35,160 bases of DNA. It comes from an uncultured Clostridia bacterium (GTDB lineage Bacteria > Bacillota > Clostridia > Oscillospirales > Oscillospiraceae). Under the pieces are notes generated by a model. It had not been told where the DNA came from. It was given only the letters and a program-made list of their open reading frames with translations, and did no database searches. The stretch covers positions 1-35,160 of the forward strand of contig CANAZG010000022.1 in NCBI GenBank assembly GCA_947365965.1, read 5' to 3'. A program made the position numbers and the translations under genes. Shown piece after piece: positions 2,831-35,160 of the stretch; the first letter of the stretch is position 1, and every line of letters begins with the position of its first letter.

Positions 2831-3775
2831 CTATTGTAGTCCCTGGGCGGTGAGGATTTCTGTCACAATTTGGAGAGCTGCCTGAAAATCCCTCTTTTTT
2901 TCCCAGTAAATCCAGCGGATGTCCTGATTTCGCCGCAGCCAGGTCAGCTGCCGCTTGGCGTACTGCCGGGACCGGCGCTTCACCAGCTCCACAGCCTCCT
3001 CCAGGGCGCACTGCCCGTCCAGGGCGGCGAGGAGCTCCTTGTAGCCGATGGCCTGGAAGGCGGTGGCGGAGCGTGGCGTCCCCGCATCCAGCAGCGAGCG
3101 GACCTCCTCCAGAAGCCCGGCGGCCAGCATTCCGTCCACCCGCCGGTCGATCAGCTCCCGCATGTCCGCCCGGTCCCGAAAGGCCAGGCCGATGTACACG
3201 GGGACATACCTGGGGGGCTGCTCCCGGCTCTCCCGATCGTGCTGGGAGATGGTCTGTCCGGTCTCCCGGTAGACTTCCAGGGCCCGGAGGATCCGCTTGT
3301 GGTCCGCCGGGTGGAGCCGCCGGGCCGCCTCCGGGTCCACCCGGGCCAGCTCCTCCAGCAGCGGCCCGATCCCCTCCTCCTCCAGCTGACGCTGGAGGGC
3401 ATGGCGGACCGCGCCGCCGGCGCTGCCGGGGGCAAAGCTCCGGCCTGCGATGATGGCGTCCAGGTAGAGCCCCGTACCGCCGGCCAATACGGGAAGTTTA
3501 TTTCTTGATAAAATATCCTGTATGCACTCATCCGCCGCCGCCGTAAACCGGGCGGCGGACCAGCTCTCCGCCGGGTCCGCCACCGCCACCATATGGTGGG
3601 GGATTCCCTCCATCTCCTGGGGGATGGGCGCGGCGGTGCCGATGGTCATGCCCCGGTAGATCTGCATAGAATCTACGCTGACCACCTCGCCGTTGAATTG
3701 TTGGGCCGTCAGCACGGCCAGCCGGGTCTTTCCGCAGGCCGTGGGGCCGACGATACAGGGGAGGATGGGAGGCAT
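2831..3775 (-). CDS. miaA: tRNA dimethylallyltransferase MiaA
   Basis: MiaA transfers a dimethylallyl group to N6 of adenosine-37 in tRNAs that read UNN codons. The 314-residue protein opens with the P-loop CIVGPTACGKTRLA (about residues 7-20), then VVSVDSMQIYRGMTIGTA with the catalytic-region aspartate, HHMVAVADPAESWSAARF, and PVLAGGTGLYLDAII, all diagnostic. The C-terminal part has YKELLAALDG and RRSRQYAKRQLTWLRR, the usual tRNA-binding basic stretch. The start ATG at 3775 is preceded by AAAAGGAG. It sits between mutL and hfq, the conserved order in many bacteria. Confidence 0.97.
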   Translation of the reverse strand: MPPILPCIVGPTACGKTRLAVLTAQQFNGEVVSVDSMQIYRGMTIGTAAPIPQEMEGIPHHMVAVADPAESWSAARFTAAADECIQDILSRNKLPVLAGGTGLYLDAIIAGRSFAPGSAGGAVRHALQRQLEEEGIGPLLEELARVDPEAARRLHPADHKRILRALEVYRETGQTISQHDRESREQPPRYVPVYIGLAFRDRADMRELIDRRVDGMLAAGLLEEVRSLLDAGTPRSATAFQAIGYKELLAALDGQCALEEAVELVKRRSRQYAKRQLTWLRRNQDIRWIYWEKKRDFQAALQIVTEILTAQGLQ

Positions 3776-3828
3776 GGCTTCTCCTTTTACGCAGTCGTTT
3801 CTATGGAGGCGGCCCCAGGGACTGTGGG

Positions 3829-3870
3829 CCCCAGGGACTGCCGCAAGGATACGGACTCGTCCATCAAAAG
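3829..3870 (-). repeat. 3'-flank repeat, copy 1 (after mutL)
   Basis: On the plus strand this reads CCCCAGGGACTGCCG, then CAAGGATACGGAC and ends CAAAAG. A second copy with the same block order lies at 7390-7430. Here it lies 16 bp beyond the mutL stop. Its first 12 bases are also duplicated just to the left (3813-3824), and a GC-rich pairing (GGCCC/GGGCC) sits there. Function is unknown. Confidence 0.55.
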
Positions 3871-3886
3871 AATATATTGTCCTATT

Positions 3887-5857
3887 CTACGCCCTTTTGA
3901 ACATTTTTTCAATCTCATATTTTGACAATTTCACCTTCACCGGCCTCCCGTGGGGGCAAAACTGGACCTCCCCGCTCTGTACCTTGTCAATCAGGGCCCG
4001 CAGCTCCGCGGGGTCGCTCCTCCAGCCCCCCTTGATGGAGGCCTTGCAGGCCATGGTGTGAAGCATGGCGTCCCGGGCGGCGGCGGGGTCCGCCCCGCCG
4101 GAGAGGAGCTTGTCCGCCAGCTCCTCCAGGGTCTCCCGGATGCGCCCGGTCTCCAGGTCCGCCGGCGCGGCCCGCACCACGATGCACCCCGCGCCGAAGT
4201 CCTCGGCCTCAAAGCCAAACTCCTCCAGCAGGGGCAGGTTCTCCAGCAGCGCCGCGTACTGCTCCCGGGCCAGCTCCACCGCCGCCGGGGCCAGCAGCCG
4301 CTGGCCCATGATGGGCTCCGCCCCCGCCTTCATCCGGTCAAAGTTGATCCTCTCGTGGGCCGCGTGCTTGTCAATGAGCCACACGTCCTCCCCGTCCTCG
4401 GCGATGATATACGTGTGGAGCACCTCCCCGGCAAACCGCCAGGGCGCGGGCTTCTCCGCCGCCAGAACCGTCTGTTCCGGCGGTTGGGACGCAGGCTCTG
4501 GTATGGGCTGGGGCGCGGGGGGGATGGGCGAGGGCTCCGGGGCCGGCGCCCGGTCCACAGCCCTGTCCAGAGGCGCAGGCCGCTCCTGGGCCGGCGGACG
4601 GTGACTCATGGGTACGGCCTGATCCAGGGGCAGCGCCCGCTCCTGGGGAGCCGGGGGCCTCTGCCGGGGCGGCCGGGCCCCGTCCCGGAAGGTGAGGCGG
4701 CCCGGGGACTGCCCCGTCTCCCGCTCCCGGAAGGTCTTGGCGTCCATGGTCTGGTAGAAGTCCCCCCGGGCGGCGGCGGCCAGCGCCTTGGGGGCGGCGG
4801 GCGGGGGCGTCTCCTGCCGGGGCTCCCCGGGGGACCGCCCCTGGCCGCCGGGAAGAGAGGCGGTCCCGCCGGCCCGGTCCAGAGCGTCCTTGACCGCATG
4901 GTGGACGGCGGAGAACACGGTCCGCTCGCTGACAAACTTCACCACCGTCTTGGCCGGGTGGACGTTCACGTCCACCTGGTGGAGAGGCAGGTCGATATGG
5001 AGCACGCACCCGGGGAACTTCCCCTTCATCTGCCGGTTGGCGTAGGCCTCCTCCAGGGCGGCGGTGAGCAGGGCGGACTTGATGGTCCGGCCGCAACAGA
5101 AAAAGGTCTGCATGGCCCGGGTGCCCCGTCCGGCCAGGGGCTCGGTGACAAAGCCCCGGACCCCCACGCCCTCGCCGCCTCCGTCCACCTCCGTCAGGCG
5201 CAGGGCGAACTCCCGGCCCCTGGCGGCGTAGATGGCGGAGAGGAGCTTGCCGTCCCCCGGCGTGTGGAGCTCCTCCCTGCCGTCCCGTATGTAGCGGATA
5301 GACACCTCCGGGCGGCTCAGGGCCAGCTGGCCCAGCATGGCCGCCACAGCGGAGGCCTCGGCGCTGTCGGTTTTCATGAATTTCAGCCGGGCAGGGGTGT
5401 TGTAGAAGAGCTGGCGCACCACCATGGTGGTGCCCTCCGGGCACCCCGCCTCCTCCACGGAGCCCGGCGCGCCCCCTTCCAGGGTCAGGGAGGCCCCCAT
5501 GGGGTCCCCCTTCCGGCGGGTGAGCACCTCCAGGCGGCTGACGGCGGAGATGGCAGCCAGGGCCTCCCCTCGGAAGCCCAGGGTGCCGATGGCGGCCAGA
5601 TCCCCGGCCTGACGGAGCTTGCTGGTGGCGTGGCGGAGGAAGGCGGTAGGCAGCTCCTCCGGCGCGATGCCGCAGCCGTTGTCGGTGACACGGATGAGGG
5701 CCATGCCGCCGTTCTGGATCTCCACCACCAGGGCGGACGCGCCCGCGTCGATGGCGTTCTCCACCAGCTCCTTGACCACGCTGGCGGGCCGCTCCACCAC
5801 CTCGCCGGCGGCGATCAGGTCCGCCACGTGGGGGGACAGCTGCTGAATATGGGGCAT
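3887..5857 (-). CDS. mutL: DNA mismatch repair protein MutL
   Basis: MutL couples MutS mismatch recognition to strand removal. The 656-residue protein starts at ATG 5857, with AAAGGAGGG about 8 bases upstream; the frame is open upstream, but that overlaps the next gene. The N-terminal GHKL ATPase carries ELVENAIDAGA, VTDNGCGI and GTLGFRGEAL. A Pro/Ala-rich linker of about 130 residues follows. The C-terminal domain has DKHAAHERINFD (D496 onward), a variant of the endonuclease motif DQHA(X)2E(X)4E with Lys for Gln, plus ACKASIKGG and CPHGRPV (about 634-640). These mark a nicking MutL of the non-MutH type. miaA lies 111 bp downstream. Confidence 0.97.
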   Translation of the reverse strand: MPHIQQLSPHVADLIAAGEVVERPASVVKELVENAIDAGASALVVEIQNGGMALIRVTDNGCGIAPEELPTAFLRHATSKLRQAGDLAAIGTLGFRGEALAAISAVSRLEVLTRRKGDPMGASLTLEGGAPGSVEEAGCPEGTTMVVRQLFYNTPARLKFMKTDSAEASAVAAMLGQLALSRPEVSIRYIRDGREELHTPGDGKLLSAIYAARGREFALRLTEVDGGGEGVGVRGFVTEPLAGRGTRAMQTFFCCGRTIKSALLTAALEEAYANRQMKGKFPGCVLHIDLPLHQVDVNVHPAKTVVKFVSERTVFSAVHHAVKDALDRAGGTASLPGGQGRSPGEPRQETPPPAAPKALAAAARGDFYQTMDAKTFRERETGQSPGRLTFRDGARPPRQRPPAPQERALPLDQAVPMSHRPPAQERPAPLDRAVDRAPAPEPSPIPPAPQPIPEPASQPPEQTVLAAEKPAPWRFAGEVLHTYIIAEDGEDVWLIDKHAAHERINFDRMKAGAEPIMGQRLLAPAAVELAREQYAALLENLPLLEEFGFEAEDFGAGCIVVRAAPADLETGRIRETLEELADKLLSGGADPAAARDAMLHTMACKASIKGGWRSDPAELRALIDKVQSGEVQFCPHGRPVKVKLSKYEIEKMFKRA

Positions 5858-5892
5858 AGCGCCCTCCTTTCCCTGTCTGGACAGGCTGGTTA

Positions 5893-6348
5893 TCAATCGT
5901 CGGGACCGTAGTGACGGACAATATAGAGGTGGGTCCCGGTAAAGAGGCCGGCAAAGACGGCCAGGACCCAGTGGCGCAGGAGGGCCGCCTGGAGGAGGAA
6001 CACCCCGCAGGGGATCAGCGCCAGAGTCAGGGCCAGCTTCCGCCCCGGCCCCTTGACGGCATAGAGGACCCAGCAGACGTAGTAGGCCGCCAGCAGCAGC
6101 GCCATGCCGATCACCCAGACAGCCACCTCCTCCAGGGCGTAGAAGCCGAACTCCCCGCCCGGTACGCCCAGGGGGACCGCCATGAAGATCATGGAGCCGA
6201 ACCGTCCAATCTGCTCCAGGGCGTTGATGGCCCGGTTGGGGCTGGAGATGCCGGCGCTTCCCCGCCGGAGGGCGTAATAGAGGATATTGGGGAGCAGAAG
6301 CAGGACCACGATCCCGGCGCTCCACAGGTTAAAAAGACTGTATACCAT
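5893..6348 (-). CDS. Small multi-pass membrane protein, function unknown
   Basis: This 151-residue protein has four predicted hydrophobic segments: about residues 8-25 (AGIVVLLLLPNILYYAL), 50-62, 76-97 (VAVWVIGMALLLAAYYVCWV) and 104-140. Short polar loops include RRGSAGISSPNRAINALEQIG after the first helix. I recognise no family. The start ATG at 6348 has GAGGGA about 8 bases upstream and lies 12 bp after the stop of the metallo-hydrolase gene; mutL follows 35 bp later, so all three are probably cotranscribed. Similar small membrane genes beside hydrolases are common, but no specific role can be claimed. Confidence 0.8.
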   Translation of the reverse strand: MVYSLFNLWSAGIVVLLLLPNILYYALRRGSAGISSPNRAINALEQIGRFGSMIFMAVPLGVPGGEFGFYALEEVAVWVIGMALLLAAYYVCWVLYAVKGPGRKLALTLALIPCGVFLLQAALLRHWVLAVFAGLFTGTHLYIVRHYGPDD

Positions 6349-29747: not shown

Positions 29748-30806
29748 TCAGTCCACGGCTGTCTTGGCCAGCTCCATGAGCAGCAGCTTCAGCTCTCCGG
29801 CTCCGTCCGCGCCGCTCACGCTCTTGATCCGCAGATCCGTCTCGCAGCACCGCCGCACCGCCCGGGCGCACCAGGCCCGGCTCACCCGGCGGGCGTTGTC
29901 CAGCAGGAGCTTGGCCGGATAGTCCGAGCGCATGTTCCACTGCTCCATGAGCCAGTACCGATCCCTGCCGGTATCCAGGGCGATCCGGGCGCTGTGGAGG
30001 CGGCGCAGCTCCCCGCCCATGAGGCTCAGGAGCATAAAGGGCTCCTGCTGCAAGGTAAGCAGCTGTCCCAGCAGCTCCGCCGCCCGGTCAAACTCCCCCT
30101 TGGACACCGCCCGGGTCATGTCGTACACCTGGGCCTCCACCACCGGCGAGGCCACCGCGTCGATGTCCTTCACAGTGATCCGCTCCCCCTGGGCGTAAGC
30201 GGCGATTTTGGCGATCTCCGGGATCAGCTGGTTCATGAGGGAGCCGCAGGTGAAGAGCAGGTGCTCCGCCGTGGGAACGTCAATGGTGTGGCCTGTGGCC
30301 TTCAGGCGGCGGGCCACCCAGCCCATCAGCTGGTTCTGGTTCAAGGGCTGGAATTTCACCTCCCGCACATGCCCGGAGAGGGCCGCGTACAGCTTTTTAT
30401 AGGTCTTGTTGGGCTTGTACTCCAGAAGGTCGTACACCAGCACCAGACAGCAGTAGGGGGGCAGGTCCTCCAGCAGGGCGATGAGCCCTTTGCGCTGCTC
30501 CTCCGGCAGCTTGTACACGTCGTAGTCCACCACCTGCACCATGGTCCGCTCCGCCATCATGGGCATGGCCTCCACGGCCTCCGTCAGAGCCTGGACCGTC
30601 AGGCCCTTGCCCTCCAGCTTATGGAAGTTAAAGGCCTCGAACCCCTCCGGCACCAGCTGGCGGCGGATCTCCGACAGGCAGAACTCCCGCAGGTAGCTCT
30701 CCTCGCCGTAGAAGAGGTAGGCCGGGGCCAGGGTCCCCGCCGCCATGTCGGCGCGGAGCTGGGTATAGGCCGCGCCCTCGTTCTGACTGCTCTTTTTCAC
30801 CGCCAT
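29748..30806 (-). CDS. holA: DNA polymerase III delta subunit HolA
   Basis: Delta is the clamp-loader subunit that opens the sliding clamp. The 352-residue protein shows the family pattern: APAYLFYGEESYLREFCLSEIRRQL at the start, FHKLEGKGLTVQALTEAVEAMPM, RTMVQVVDYDVYKL, VLVYDLLEYKPNK, a middle domain with LLFTCGSLMNQLIPEIAKIAAYA, and the C-terminal oligomerisation helices. In many Firmicutes holA follows comEC; here two restriction-modification genes lie between them. ATG 30806 is 4 bp after the methyltransferase stop and has AGGGATAAGG upstream, so translation is probably coupled. Confidence 0.95.
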   Translation of the reverse strand: MAVKKSSQNEGAAYTQLRADMAAGTLAPAYLFYGEESYLREFCLSEIRRQLVPEGFEAFNFHKLEGKGLTVQALTEAVEAMPMMAERTMVQVVDYDVYKLPEEQRKGLIALLEDLPPYCCLVLVYDLLEYKPNKTYKKLYAALSGHVREVKFQPLNQNQLMGWVARRLKATGHTIDVPTAEHLLFTCGSLMNQLIPEIAKIAAYAQGERITVKDIDAVASPVVEAQVYDMTRAVSKGEFDRAAELLGQLLTLQQEPFMLLSLMGGELRRLHSARIALDTGRDRYWLMEQWNMRSDYPAKLLLDNARRVSRAWCARAVRRCCETDLRIKSVSGADGAGELKLLLMELAKTAVD

Positions 30807-30810
30807 GGCC

Positions 30811-31470
30811 TTATCCCTCCGTCCTTGACGCCACCGTGTGGTTGGCGTAGGTGCTCCAGGTGGGCTCGTAGTCCGCCGTGGCCTGATTGCCCCACAGGTC
30901 CCAGCCTGGCCGGCTGCCCCGGGCGAAGAGCTCCAGAAAGGGGGCGGGGGAGCACCGCTCGATAAGGCCGATGAACTCGTCCGGCTTCCGGGAGTGCTCC
31001 CGCTTGATGGCCCGGATGAGATTCACCTGGCTCCGCCCCGGGTCCAGGGTCCGGTTCTTCTCCCCCCGTATGCCGAAGAGGAGGATCTCTGTCACATTCC
31101 GGAAGTAGAACCCCACCCCCCGGCCGTCGGGCATGCCGTCCTTGCGGACCTTCTCCCAGATGATGTTGGTCTTGTACTCGAATCCCCAGGCCTCCATCAC
31201 CTCCAGGCCCTGGGGCAGCAGGGCGTTGGGCACCCAGAGGTAGAGGTGGCTCTTCTCGTCCGCCGCCTCGGCCACGGGCAGACGGCAGATCTCCGGCACG
31301 GTCATGGTGCTGTAGCGGCTCAGCCGCTTGTGCTCCGGGGCCACCTTGCCGGTCCGGTTCTGGAACTGCCAGGGCGGGTCCGCGTAGATGGTCCTGTACC
31401 GCTTTCCCGCCGTAAAGGCCCGGAAATCCGCAATGGTCCGCTCCAGCTCGGTCATCTTTGTGTTCTCCAT
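30811..31470 (-). CDS. MT-A70-family N6-adenine DNA methyltransferase
   Basis: A 219-residue methyltransferase. YRTIYADPPWQF has the catalytic DPPW at 31-34. STMTVPEICRLPV, HLYLWVPNALLPQGLEVMEAWGFEYKTNIIWEK and FRNVTEILLFGIRG are the usual MT-A70 blocks, and ELFARGSRPGWDLWGNQ is the SAM-binding end. The family includes eukaryotic METTL3 and bacterial modification enzymes such as M.MunI. It follows the BglII/BstYI-type endonuclease gene by 3 bp, so it should protect the same site by methylating adenine. There is no separate target-recognition domain, which suits a short palindromic site. Confidence 0.92.
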   Translation of the reverse strand: MENTKMTELERTIADFRAFTAGKRYRTIYADPPWQFQNRTGKVAPEHKRLSRYSTMTVPEICRLPVAEAADEKSHLYLWVPNALLPQGLEVMEAWGFEYKTNIIWEKVRKDGMPDGRGVGFYFRNVTEILLFGIRGEKNRTLDPGRSQVNLIRAIKREHSRKPDEFIGLIERCSPAPFLELFARGSRPGWDLWGNQATADYEPTWSTYANHTVASRTEG

Positions 31471-31473
31471 AGC

Positions 31474-32136
31474 TTAATACCCTTCTATGCAAGGCTTTCT
31501 GATCCCCACGGCCAGAATGGGGCAGCCCCCGTTCCGCCTGGACTTCAGCCGGTACTCCAGCTTCCCCATCCAGGTGGTGCTGGCCCCGTACTTGGCCATG
31601 AGGGGCTTGCCCGTCCGGTCCGTCACTTCCCGGAACACGTCGTTGAGCTCCTGGGACCGGGTCACGATGACCCCCACCTCGATGATGCCGCAGTCAAAAT
31701 AGGTCCGCATGGCCAGCAGGTCCCGGTCAAAGGTCTGGTCCTTGCTGTTCCACTCCAGGTCAAAGGCCACCCCGCCCTTGATAAAGTCGATGTTGTGCCC
31801 GTCAATATAGCCCTCAATGACCATCTGCTCGCAGGGGTTCTGGGCGAACCGCCCCCGCTGGCTGGCCCGCCGGGGGTACATGTTCACCACCAGATCCCCG
31901 GTGATCCGGATCTCCCGCCAGCCCAGGGGGTAGAGCACGTCGTCAAATTTCTTGGGAATGGCGGTCTCGTTGCCCCCGGCGGCCCGGAGATCATCCAGGG
32001 AGATGGCGAACCGCTCCAGGGCGTTCTGGAGCTCGTCCCACTCCCCGGGAAAGGCCTCCCCCAGAATCTCCAGGGCGTGGCCGTAGCTGTAAAACTCGAA
32101 TTTCTCCAGGAGATTCTCCCGGACATATGCCGTCAT
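31474..32136 (-). CDS. BglII/BstYI-family type II restriction endonuclease
   Basis: A 220-residue nuclease. The core IDFIKGGVAFDLEWNSKDQTFDRDL with acidic residues D117 and E128 and the EWNSKD block, followed by YFDCGIIEVGVIVTR, is the signature of the BglII/BstYI family, known to cut AGATCT or RGATCY. A GATC-centred site is therefore likely here, but the exact sequence cannot be read from the protein. The length is close to BglII (223) and BstYI. Its ATG overlaps the comEC stop as ATGA, and the methyltransferase follows. Base composition resembles the host, so this is not a recent arrival. Confidence 0.92.
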   Translation of the reverse strand: MTAYVRENLLEKFEFYSYGHALEILGEAFPGEWDELQNALERFAISLDDLRAAGGNETAIPKKFDDVLYPLGWREIRITGDLVVNMYPRRASQRGRFAQNPCEQMVIEGYIDGHNIDFIKGGVAFDLEWNSKDQTFDRDLLAMRTYFDCGIIEVGVIVTRSQELNDVFREVTDRTGKPLMAKYGASTTWMGKLEYRLKSRRNGGCPILAVGIRKPCIEGY

Positions 32137-34349
32137 TTTGTCTCCCCCTTCCTGTGGACCCGGATGAGAATGTTTCCCTGCCGGTCCGTGCGGTACAGGT
32201 CCATGCCCGCGCCGGCCATGCGGCCCATGGCCTCCTCTGTAGGGTGGCCGAAGGCGTTGGGCCCTACGCTGATGACGCCCACCTCCGGCCGGGTTCCATC
32301 CAGCAGGGCCTGGGAGGTGGCGTACTTGCTGCCGTGGTGCCCCGCCAGCAGGACCTCCAAGTCCGGCAGGGGGTAGGTCTCCAGGAGGACCGCCTCGGTG
32401 GCGCTGTCCATGTCCCCGGTGATGAGCAGGTCAAATTCCCCCAGGGAGCACAGAACCGTGAGCCCCTCCTCGTTGGTCTCTCCGGCGGCCACCGGCGGAT
32501 ACAAGGTCAGCGTCCCCGGGCCCAGGTCCGTCCGGCTTGGCTCCTCCACATATTCCACCGCCACGCCCCGTTCCCGGGCCAGCGCCAGCAGGTCCTCGGC
32601 ATCCTCCTCCGGGTCTGTCCGGGGCAGCAGGAGCCGCTCTGCGGGGATCTGCTCCAGCAGGGAGGGGATGCCCCCGGCGTGGTCCTTATGGCAGTGGGTC
32701 AGGACCACCGCGTCCAGGGCGGTCCAGCCGTAGGTCTCCATGGCCGCGGCCACCGCGTCTCCGGCCCGCTCCGGGCTGCTGAGGCTGCCGCAGTCCACCA
32801 GGACCGTGCGCTCTCCGGCGTGGAGCAGCGCCGCCGCACCCTGGCCCACGTCCACCACCACTGCCGTGAGGGCGTCGTTTTTCACCGTCATCCGGGGCAG
32901 GGCCCGGGCCGCCTCCAGGCTCACCAGGGCCAGCAGGGCGGCCAGGACATATCCCCGCCCTCCGGGCCGTCCCAGCAGGCACACGCCCAGCAGTCCGTAG
33001 ACCAGCACCAGCCACATGGCCGCCGCCGGCGTGCTGAACCGGACGCTGTGTCCGGGGATCCGGCACAAAAGCTCCGCCGTCCACAGCACGTACCGGGCCA
33101 GAGCCGCCGGCAGGACCGCCAGCGGCGCGGCGGCCGGCAGGAATGCGCACAGGGCTGTGACTATCAAACCCAGGGCGAAGAGCGCCGGGGCCATCCACAG
33201 CACCAGGAGGCTGGACAGGGGAGAGACCAGGGACAGGGTTCCGAAGTAGGCTGCGCTCAGGGGCGCGGTAAACAGGGACACCCCGGCGCTGGCAGCCAGG
33301 GTCGCCCGGACAAACCGCCGGAGCCCTCCCGGCCGGCTCCCCATGGCCCGGTAGATCCGGGGCGACAGGGTCAGCAGCCCCGCCACAGCGGCAAAGGAGA
33401 GCTGGAAGCTCACCGAGGCGATGGCAAAGGGGTTTCCAAGGAGGATCACCAGGGCGGCGGCGGACAGGGAGGTGGGAGCGTCCGCCTCCCGGCCCACCAG
33501 CGGGGCCAGCAGAGCCAGACCCACCATCACGCAGGAGCGGACCACCGACGGGGTGGCTCCGGCCATGAGCATGTACACCAGCAGCGCCGGGTATCCCATC
33601 AGGGCCGTGAGCCGCTGGCGGCGGAGAGTCAGAATACCCAGCAGGGCGATGAGGAAGCCGCAGTGGAGGCCGGACACGGCGGTCAGGTGCATGAGCCCCG
33701 CCTCCGAGAGCTGCCGCTGGCTCAGGCTGTCCAGTCCGTCCCGCTCCCCGGTGAGCATGGCCAGGAGAAGGCCCCGCTCCGGCTGCCCATAGACCTCCCC
33801 GGCGGCCATCCGCAGACCCCGGGCCATCCGCTGGGGCAGGTACCGGAGTCCTCCGCCGGGCTCCGCCTCCAGCTCGCCCCGGCCGTACAGGCGCAGAAAG
33901 ACGCCCCGGGAGGTGAAATAGGCGCTCTCCTCTCCGCCCAGAACCTGGGCGCTTTGATATTTCACATCGGCGGCGGCCCGGTCCCCCGGCTCCAGATCCA
34001 GCAGCTCCCGGCCGCCGTAGTACACCGCCCGGCCCAAAAGGCCCTGGACCCGGACCTGACAGCGAGCCCCGAAGTCCGTCTCCTCCGGGTACCCGGTCAG
34101 CTCCATCACCGCACTCCCCTCCGTGCCCGCCAGCTGCCGGGCGGGGGCCTGGACCAGGGCGGCGTAGCCGGTGAACCAGAGAAGCCCCGCCGCCAGCCCG
34201 GCGGCCCCGATGCGCACCCTCGCCGATGGGGTCAGCCCCACCAGCAGAGCGGCCAGCGCCGCCCACAGCCGCCAGGACTCCGGCAGCAGGTAGCAGCACA
34301 GGGCGCATCCGGCGGCGAAGGGCAGGGCAAACACCGTCAATCTCCGCAT
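32133..34349 (-). CDS. comEC: DNA uptake channel protein ComEC/Rec2
   Basis: ComEC forms the membrane channel for single-stranded DNA during natural transformation. The 738-residue protein has N-terminal helices (about 5-60), an extracellular domain (about 70-165), the competence domain (about 190-470: ERGLLLAMLTGERDGL, GLMHLTAVSGLHCGFLIALLG, GATPSVVRSCVMVGL, FQLSFAAVAGLL) and a C-terminal metallo-beta-lactamase domain (VVVDVGQGAAALLHAG, DAVVLTHCHKDHAGG, LLITGDMDSATE, LLAGHHGSKYA). All metal ligands are present, so it looks complete. It starts 5 bp after an XRE regulator gene and overlaps the endonuclease gene by 4 bases. Confidence 0.96.
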   Translation of the reverse strand: MRRLTVFALPFAAGCALCCYLLPESWRLWAALAALLVGLTPSARVRIGAAGLAAGLLWFTGYAALVQAPARQLAGTEGSAVMELTGYPEETDFGARCQVRVQGLLGRAVYYGGRELLDLEPGDRAAADVKYQSAQVLGGEESAYFTSRGVFLRLYGRGELEAEPGGGLRYLPQRMARGLRMAAGEVYGQPERGLLLAMLTGERDGLDSLSQRQLSEAGLMHLTAVSGLHCGFLIALLGILTLRRQRLTALMGYPALLVYMLMAGATPSVVRSCVMVGLALLAPLVGREADAPTSLSAAALVILLGNPFAIASVSFQLSFAAVAGLLTLSPRIYRAMGSRPGGLRRFVRATLAASAGVSLFTAPLSAAYFGTLSLVSPLSSLLVLWMAPALFALGLIVTALCAFLPAAAPLAVLPAALARYVLWTAELLCRIPGHSVRFSTPAAAMWLVLVYGLLGVCLLGRPGGRGYVLAALLALVSLEAARALPRMTVKNDALTAVVVDVGQGAAALLHAGERTVLVDCGSLSSPERAGDAVAAAMETYGWTALDAVVLTHCHKDHAGGIPSLLEQIPAERLLLPRTDPEEDAEDLLALARERGVAVEYVEEPSRTDLGPGTLTLYPPVAAGETNEEGLTVLCSLGEFDLLITGDMDSATEAVLLETYPLPDLEVLLAGHHGSKYATSQALLDGTRPEVGVISVGPNAFGHPTEEAMGRMAGAGMDLYRTDRQGNILIRVHRKGETK

Positions 34350-34354
34350 GGCGG

Positions 34355-34570
34355 CTATTTGGTGGGATCCATCCGGTCCGTGCGGCCAAGGATGTAGTCG
34401 GTGCTGGTGTGGTAGAGGTCCGCCAGACGGATGAGGGCCCAGACGGGGATCTCCCGGATGCCCCGCTCATACCGCCCGTAGACCTCCTTATTCATGCACA
34501 GGTATTCCGCCACGTCCTTCTGGTGAAGATCGTGGTCATATCGCAAATCAGCTATGCGCGGGAATTTCAT
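34355..34570 (-). CDS. Small XRE-family regulator heading the comEC operon
   Basis: A 71-residue single helix-turn-helix protein: RIADLRYDHDLHQKDVAEYLCMNKEVYGRYERGIREIPVWAL matches HTH_3, and LADLYHTSTDYILGRTD is the usual end of Cro/CI-like regulators in clostridia. There is no sensor or dimerisation domain. I start at ATG 34570, with AGAGGTGAC about 6 bases upstream. comEC follows after 5 bp, so it controls, or is made with, the comEC operon. CATTCGG-centred palindromes lie in its leader (34592-34638), the likely self-binding sites (inference). Confidence 0.92.
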   Translation of the reverse strand: MKFPRIADLRYDHDLHQKDVAEYLCMNKEVYGRYERGIREIPVWALIRLADLYHTSTDYILGRTDRMDPTK

Positions 34571-34591
34571 GGGCGTCACCTCTGTAAAAAT

Positions 34592-34638
34592 CCTACCATT
34601 CGGTAGTCTTTCGCAGGGCATAACCTATCATTCGGTTG
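34592..34638 (-). promoter_or_regulatory. Operator-like palindromes before the comEC operon
   Basis: CCTACCATTCGGTAG (34592-34606) contains the perfect inverted repeat CTACC/GGTAG. CCTATCATTCGGTTG (34624-34638) repeats it, with AACC/GGTT arms (34623-34637). Centres are 32 bp apart, about three helical turns. A related TATCATT follows at 34686, opposed by ATGATA near 34666. The spacing and symmetry suit a small XRE dimer. Confidence 0.6.
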
Positions 34639-34775
34639 GCCATGCAGGCATTTTGCCGCAGGGGTATGATATCTGTTTTACAGGGTATCATTTTACCGGG
34701 AAAAAGTCAAATCCAACAAAACGGTTTTCCCCTCCAGGCTCTCCGCGCCCCATATCCTCCCAAAAGAAAAATTTT

Positions 34776-34808
34776 AGGTCAAATTCACCCTAAATATAAT
34801 AGGTCAAA
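34776..34808 (+). promoter_or_regulatory. Promoter and AGGTCAAA operator pair of the second XRE gene
   Basis: TATAAT (34795-34800) has a weak -35 (TTTTAG 34772-34777, spacer 17). AGGTCAAA occurs at 34776-34783 and 34801-34808, exactly bracketing the -10 box, with GTCAAA again at 34706. Binding there would block polymerase. Confidence 0.6.
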
Positions 34809-34833
34809 CTGACATACTACTCTCGGTGATTGT

Positions 34834-35076
34834 ATGAGCAGATTAAGGCAGCTGCGAAAAGAGCGCGGCTATACCCAAGTGAAAATGCAGATGCTGACGG
34901 GCATTGACCAGAGCGACTACTCCAAGCTGGAGACCGGGAAGCGCTACTTTACCTATGAGCAGCTGCGCCGGGTGGCCCTGGCCCTGGACACCAGCATGGA
35001 CTATCTGGCGGGGCTCACCGATGAAAAGCGGCCCTATCCCCGCACCTCCGGTCCCGGCAGAAAGGAGCGGCTGTGA
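34834..35076 (+). CDS. Small XRE-family regulator heading the comF gene
   Basis: An 80-residue single-domain regulator: LRQLRKERGYTQVKMQMLTGIDQSDYSKLETGKRYFTYEQL is a canonical HTH_3, and LALDTSMDYLAGLTDEKRPY the typical end. It is divergent from the XRE gene of the comEC operon and only distantly similar to it. The stop overlaps the GTG start of comF as GTGA, so the two are translated together. The ribosome site is weak (CGGTGAT just before ATG 34834). AGGTCAAA repeats around its promoter are candidate self-regulatory sites (inference). Confidence 0.92.
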   Translation: MSRLRQLRKERGYTQVKMQMLTGIDQSDYSKLETGKRYFTYEQLRRVALALDTSMDYLAGLTDEKRPYPRTSGPGRKERL

Positions 35077-35160
35077 ACATTCTTCTTGATCTCCTCTTTC
35101 CGCCCCGGTGCGCCTTCTGCGGCGCTCTCACAGACCGGCCGGGCGTGTGCCCGGACTGCC
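35073..35160 (+). CDS. comF: ComF-family protein, N-terminal zinc finger (runs off the right edge)
   Basis: From GTG 35073 the frame reads MNILLDLLFPPRCAFCGALT followed by DRPGVCPDC. The hydrophobic start and the paired CxxC knuckles are the zinc-finger opening of ComF/ComFC proteins; the phosphoribosyltransferase domain would follow outside the window. AAAGGAG lies about 7 bases before the GTG. ComF supports natural transformation, and its place beside comEC strengthens the call. Only 29 codons are visible. Confidence 0.85.
   Translation, partial: MNILLDLLFPPRCAFCGALTDRPGVCPDC

Follow-up and report, generated by a model that had tools for sequence, protein, structure and literature searches.

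The window, that is, the whole stretch of 35,160 nucleotides that was analysed, is contig C22 of a metagenome-assembled genome (G000, here called the home genome) that measures 3.39 Mb in 230 contigs and is 76.6% complete. Near one end of it, the competence genes comEC and comF are transcribed away from each other, and each is headed by a small gene for an XRE-type regulator, here named XRE-A and XRE-B. Upon re-checking of the gene calls, both small XRE genes and the divergent comEC and comF halves proved real, and the 263-bp divergent region described in the initial annotation is the distance from the start codon of XRE-A to that of XRE-B. The features of the locus are as follows.

29748-30806, minus strand: holA (DNA polymerase III delta), downstream of the endonuclease/methyltransferase pair
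30811-31470, minus strand: MT-A70 DNA methyltransferase gene (PF05063, E 1.1e-31; PADLOC MTase_II)
31474-32136, minus strand: BglII-type restriction endonuclease gene (PF09195, E 4.4e-41)
32133-34349, minus strand: comEC, 738 amino acids, with Competence and metallo-beta-lactamase domains
34355-34570, minus strand: XRE-A, 71 amino acids, HTH-only, first gene of the comEC operon
34593-34606, minus strand: proximal candidate A operator, CTACCGAATGGTAG, 14/14 to the A pattern
34625-34638, minus strand: distal candidate A operator, CAACCGAATGATAG, 12/14 to the A pattern
34775-34793, plus strand: distal candidate B operator, TAGGTCAAATTCACCCTAA, kept upstream of XRE-B orthologues
34800-34818, plus strand: proximal candidate B operator, TAGGTCAAACTGACATACT, 13/19 to the B pattern
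34834-35076, plus strand: XRE-B, 80 amino acids, HTH-only, first gene of the comF operon
35073-35160, plus strand: 5' end of comF, starting inside the XRE-B stop, with the rest on contig C4

Each regulator gene is coupled to its competence gene as tightly as had been annotated: by their coordinates, 5 bp separate XRE-A from comEC, and the GTG start of comF at 35073 lies within the XRE-B stop in a GTGA overlap. XRE-A matches the profile PF01381 (E 4.3e-08) and XRE-B matches PF12844 (E 8.2e-14); the Pfam matches of both are to HTH families exclusively, and no sensor domain was seen in them. The start of XRE-A was placed at the ATG at 34570, as a longer alternative from 34621 would traverse the proximal A operator. 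ComEC is well supported by PF03772 (E 1e-50). The comF gene runs off the contig end, and contig C4 opens with the same 55 bases, so that joining the two yields a complete protein of 217 amino acids, which matches TIGR00201 comF with an E value of 2.2e-26 but at 93 bits, below the curated cut-off of 233.55, and also matches PF00156. The next gene after comF in the home genome belongs to the MreB family. On the comEC side, the start of the endonuclease gene overlaps the comEC stop, which places it in the same operon as judged by position, and the MT-A70 methyltransferase is likely the partner of this endonuclease. In most of 80 named comEC loci, holA follows immediately after comEC.

The CATTCGG palindromes noted on the comEC side are real, and copies of them sit inside both A dyads, which in the window are spaced 32 bp apart with the distal copy farther upstream. 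Among the 80 named comEC loci, 29 have a small XRE gene ending no more than 150 bp from the comEC start, and 51 do not. The XRE-led loci belong to the genus of the window (12 loci), its sister genus (one locus, G029) and others (16 loci, from Oscillibacter, Flavonifractor, Intestinimonas, Pseudoflavonifractor and Ca. Galloscillospira); 12 of the 29 are from the same genomes as the genus tally given below. With A and B consensus patterns that were built from part of the loci later scored, an A dyad matching at 12 or more of 14 positions was found 15 to 24 nt before the XRE start in 19 of the 29 XRE-led loci and, with up to 400 bp searched, in one of the 51 loci without XRE. In the 29 named loci plus the window, 30 in all, the best second A site is exactly 32 bp away in 24 cases; the other six comprise two at 33 bp, a tie at 32 bp (L163) and three with the site elsewhere (L132, L134 and L198). 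At a distance of 32 bp upstream from the proximal A site, the loci match at 7.73 of 10 positions on average, compared with 3.36 over 46 distances and 4.4 at the next best distance. In three loci (L181, L182 and L144), TCC instead of ACC opens the A core in the proximal and distal copies alike. Two loci, L132 and L134, have an XRE gene before comEC, and no A operator was found there.

The AGGTCAA direct repeats on the comF side are likewise real and are contained in two 19-mers 25 bp apart, the second of which ends 15 nt ahead of the XRE-B ATG. This pair occurs at exactly 25 bp upstream of 10 of 13 XRE-B genes, including the one in the window, and is missing in G003, G010 and G016, where XRE-B lies directly behind another XRE gene. 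A genome of another family (G043) keeps the B layout, and XRE-B there follows an M18 aminopeptidase gene, not comF. A weak B-like match at 34703 (14/19) scores above the proximal B site (13/19) and, judged by its letters, may be a third, weak B site. The TATAAT at 34795-34800 between the B repeats had been taken for the comF -10 box. This assignment did not hold, as the box is not kept in relatives. Their sequence differs at this point, and most of them share CATAAT or CATACT at the 3' terminus of the second B repeat. Promoter-like matches in the region are at chance level, with one found and 0.6 expected. In another genome (G012, contig C67, locus L246), a B-type operator with one mismatch precedes an XRE gene near comF that is clearly a different one, which looks as though the regulator had been exchanged and the B site kept.

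The initial annotation proposed to look in related genomes for both regulator-gene pairs and their repeats, and both pairs do recur. Of the 22 genus genomes with a readable comEC start, 14, among them the home genome, have XRE-A as the gene immediately before comEC. The remaining eight of these genomes and 51 of the 80 named loci have no XRE leader at comEC, and XRE-A is therefore dispensable. For comF, 20 of 25 genus genomes have one or more small XRE genes in the same orientation no farther than about 1 kb upstream; XRE-B itself is found upstream of comF in 12 of the 25 (the copy in G001 is cut short) and touches comF in the home genome and G023 only. The finding named beforehand as a refutation, that relatives carry comEC and comF without these regulators, thus applies in part, since comF is often preceded by a different one.

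Where XRE-B is present, it is well conserved, with 81 to 90% identity over 71 to 76 of its 80 residues in ten other genus genomes and 84% over 50 residues in G001; ComF is less conserved within the genus (54 to 68% over near full-length matches). An Arc-like ribbon-helix-helix protein of 64 to 66 amino acids overlaps comF in place of an XRE in G007 and G022, and in G014 such a protein is encoded alongside an XRE (loci L109, L104 and L103, respectively); the G022 copy matches PF03869 with an E value of 4.5e-4, at the family cut-off. This protein, with its different DNA-binding fold, occupies the slot of the touching XRE at comF. Neither type of leader was seen before comF in G006 and G024, and the contig of G004 ends too early upstream of comF. 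Going by these gene neighborhoods, species differ in the leader they have at comF, and the exchange extends even to a ribbon-helix-helix protein. Two sites 24 to 25 bp apart precede the comF leaders of type C in four of five rows and those of type D in two of seven; type D rows are thus mostly without paired sites, and the two-site layout is not universal at comF.

Each repeat family goes with its own regulator, A with XRE-comEC loci and B with XRE-B loci. The home genome contains a single match to the A pattern with at most one mismatch, which is the proximal A site in the window, and a single match to the B pattern with at most three mismatches, which is the distal B site in the window; both counts apply to a 76.6% complete assembly and to strict patterns, which degenerate sites could escape. 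Over 60 genomes, the A pattern gave 28 matches, compared with 39 for the reversed control. Eight distinct sites lie before XRE-comEC, and the other matches, which have no convincing small XRE gene within 1.5 kb (a weak one at L217), look like background. As the strict pattern recovers only eight of the 15 known XRE-comEC loci in these genomes (14 of the genus, home included, plus G029), weaker targets elsewhere could escape it. The B pattern with at most two mismatches gave 14 matches, of which 10 lie before XRE-B; the others are in G012 before the different XRE near comF, in G013 and G035 with no small XRE nearby, and in G046.

Gene order, coupling, the two-site layout with its fixed spacing, recurrence, the single strict matches and the grouping of the comEC regulators described below can all be read from the sequence. 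We consider it probable that XRE-A and XRE-B are HTH-only autoregulators, each dedicated to the operon it leads, and that they form two independent circuits. XRE-A would serve a co-transcribed comEC operon, with the endonuclease gene, the methyltransferase gene and holA behind it, and XRE-B would serve comF. Each regulator would bind its own operator, present twice in its leader region, and would regulate mainly its own operon. Since 32 bp correspond to about three helical turns, two dimers of XRE-A would sit on the same face of the DNA at the A sites. The most likely outcome would be autorepression rather than activation, by which operon output is held low and constant, and the operon would be released once the regulator is lost, diluted or degraded by proteolysis. 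Autoregulation is the simplest mechanism for a regulator with no sensing domain that is encoded first and close in the operon behind a private two-site operator; as promoters were not convincingly located, the sign of regulation is taken from the layout alone.

C proteins of type II restriction-modification systems are small autoregulators that use two operators and first activate, then repress. A timer of this kind is a rather unlikely alternative for the XRE genes at comEC and comF: at a low level, the XRE would fill one site and activate, and at a high level it would also fill the second and repress, so that ComEC or ComF would appear as a delayed pulse. Several features fit it, namely a small HTH-only protein encoded by a gene touching the effector gene, two operators that are unequal in their match to the A or B pattern, and a comEC operon that in the window also holds an endonuclease and a methyltransferase. 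Moreover, the controller protein C.AhdI is the nearest solved structure to XRE-B by sequence (E 4.6e-4). However, this match is weak, the A and B spacings differ from each other, and activation would depend on where the promoter lies relative to the two sites.

The head-to-head order of comEC and comF was found in the home genome only. In the 24 other genus genomes, about 1 kb or more was read beside comEC, beside comF or beside both, and the respective other gene did not appear; in 21 of the 24 the two genes are on different contigs. Similarly, comF was not found in the flanks of the 80 named comEC loci, which extend up to 6 kb and, for 73 of the 80, include 1 kb or more of upstream sequence. 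A DNA search with the region matched its two halves apart or a single half, and nothing in G017 and G021. The upstream neighbors of the comEC and comF operons vary from species to species, in a comparison that left out the G023 locus with its cut comF; the mreB-like gene after comF and holA after comEC are kept in most loci read. A conserved upstream neighbor that could prove an ancestral gene order was sought in the relatives, and none was found. Taken from these comparisons, the head-to-head order appears to be either a rearrangement, so far of this genome alone, or an assembly error. That the juxtaposition is a chimera of the metagenome assembly seems a minor possibility. The arrangement is unique, the genome is in 230 contigs and a contig break falls inside comF, but similarity to genomes of a single genus extends to both halves, the upstream neighbors vary among relatives anyway, and more than 300 bp separate the break (35106-35160) from the segment that is dissimilar to relatives (about 34642-34771). 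With two independent circuits, the back-to-back position would be the product of a rearrangement.

It is highly improbable that the A inverted repeat acts as an RNA hairpin, i.e., an attenuator or translational control element, upstream of the ribosome-binding site. The sequence CTACCGAATGGTAG followed by GATTTTT scores as terminator-like, but the scan expects 0.4 such hits by chance, so we rejected this reading as weak. Furthermore, the A repeat is present as two copies that have a core in common and are exactly 32 bp apart, it is found together with the XRE, and in some loci its proximal and distal copies show the same changed base. Least credible of all is the mutual or bistable comEC/comF switch that had been proposed to act through the 263 bp that the two genes share: they are transcribed divergently, both operator families lie within one region, and the B-like match at 34703 lies between the A and B sets, but the arrangement occurs in one of 25 genus genomes and in none of the 80 named comEC loci, so that the divergent pair is not kept in relatives as in CI/Cro-type switches, strong matches within the 263 bp lie beside their own regulator (A matches of at least 12/14 only beside XRE-A), and the A and B halves retain their own operators when apart.

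A role of the two regulators in a wider competence program is not apparent either. No small XRE gene was seen in the fetched stretches upstream of dprA (21 loci), comEA (15 loci) or PF00437 ATPase genes (13 loci), a survey in which L330 has a partial dprA, the gene itself is uncalled in L369 and L368 has an XRE downstream only. This suggests that XRE-A and XRE-B are probably not competence master regulators, for which the same operator would be expected before several com genes, a situation not found at the level of the strict patterns. A competence regulon was considered unlikely given the single strict operator matches and the lack of XRE genes before other com genes. A PF00437 match above the cut-off is absent in 12 of 25 genus genomes, including the 97% complete G011, and DNA uptake itself is therefore only putative here. 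The idea of a competence-specific system is likewise not supported, as similar leaders also precede genes for tRNA ligases as well as pyrE, whiA and trmFO.

Small XRE genes, single or in tandem, lie upstream of trmFO in the home genome, G011 and G008, with one to four genes per locus:

L390 (home genome), 3372-4479: trmFO-linked XRE
L391 (G011), 5208-5447: trmFO-linked XRE
L392 (G008), 5648-6200: trmFO-linked XRE

Perfect palindromes, such as CCGGTTATAGTATAACCGG, precede these genes in G011 and G008 and are not clearly present in the home genome. In hand-picked stretches, with distances of 22 to 232 bp, small XRE genes were also seen ahead of whiA, alaS, pyrE, fchA-like and EF-G-like genes in the home genome (L428, L429, L430, L432 and L433) and ahead of gltX and alaS in G011 (L446 and L450), often as tandem pairs. 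The EF-G-like gene, which also resembles those for Tet-protection proteins, is below resistance cut-offs. Before 27 other XRE genes, palindromes reached a p_shuf of 0.04 or less in eight cases and not in the other 19, so a dyad is no general rule. By eye, a TGTCAA box together with the palindrome in L452, L391 and other loci reads on the opposite strand as TTGACA-N17-TATAAT-like divergent promoters.

To judge from a tree of 115 of 120 candidate XREs (three were left out for unknown residues or length, two as duplicates), leaders seem to group largely by partner gene. The tree is based on 76 columns and a quick method with SH-aLRT support only and resolves little, yet the comEC label requires three changes on it, compared with 27.6 in shuffles. 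All 31 comEC-linked rows fall within one group of 34, and a single clade was not rejected (p-AU 0.73). Of the seven trmFO rows, six are together, and the three alaS rows lie close, with two others, while whiA, pyrE and gltX rows are partly mixed with others. XRE-A and XRE-B would then belong to a larger group of small XRE leaders, each dedicated to one gene. We tentatively put forward, as a reading with somewhat less than even support, a one-gene-one-regulator layer of perhaps dozens of HTH-only XRE leaders with private two-site operators that would be long tied to core genes (comEC, trmFO, alaS, gltX, pyrE, whiA and the fchA-like gene), and in which the slot at comF would be kept while its regulator is replaced.

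The BglII-type endonuclease and MT-A70 methyltransferase genes sit between comEC and holA (30811-32136, minus strand). The same pair was found in one of the 80 named comEC loci, 73 of which have at least 1.4 kb of downstream sequence; in this locus (L137), which also has XRE-A, the two are 82 and 84% identical to those in the window. If transcribed together with the gene for the DNA channel, restriction genes could be of use in handling incoming DNA. Oscillospiraceae are a major group of gut Clostridia, and among titles and abstract openings in the literature we found none on the control of comEC or comF in this family. Named regulators and candidate operators are now available for both genes. 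The competence-switch story falls on comparison with relatives, and the pattern that remains is one of partner-dedicated putative autoregulators before unrelated core genes, with the type of regulator swapped at comF.

Among known systems, C proteins such as C.AhdI share several traits with XRE-A and XRE-B. They too are small, HTH-only XRE-type proteins (around 80 amino acids, compared with 71 and 80 here) whose genes lie directly upstream of the gene served, and they have two operator copies in their own leader, as predicted here with candidate operators at 32 bp for A and 25 bp for B. However, C proteins control an endonuclease, whereas XRE-A and XRE-B serve comEC or comF; the endonuclease gene is third in the comEC operon instead of directly behind the regulator gene, neither operator nor spacing is the same for A and B, and the sequence relation is weak. 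Because the gene served is not an endonuclease, XRE-A and XRE-B are not members of the C-protein class.

Immunity repressors of phages and integrative elements (ICEBs1 Xre type, CI) belong to the same broad HTH families, and the ICEBs1 Xre regulator is the nearest solved structure to XRE-A by sequence (E 3.3e-6). In contrast to these repressors, XRE-A and XRE-B have a single HTH domain and XRE-A has a long association with comEC. Next to the two genes, nothing from a phage or ICE was noticed. Phage XREs are up to 59% identical to XRE-A, and a phage origin was set aside with phage relatives at or below this value. A type II toxin-antitoxin system with a HigA-like XRE antitoxin was also rejected, since the adjoining genes are comEC and comF and not a toxin gene.

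ComK, sigma-H/ComX and ComRS are competence regulators of Firmicutes that act on the late competence genes of their hosts, in trans and on many com genes. Unlike these, XRE-A and XRE-B each have a single strict operator match in the home genome, and the fetched stretches show no small XRE leader at dprA or comEA. Finally, PMC10688885 describes radiated XRE paralogues with host functions in Caulobacter and its phage phiCbK, which act on a shared set of genes and are able to interact physically. The XREs described here differ in that each is apparently tied to one operon.
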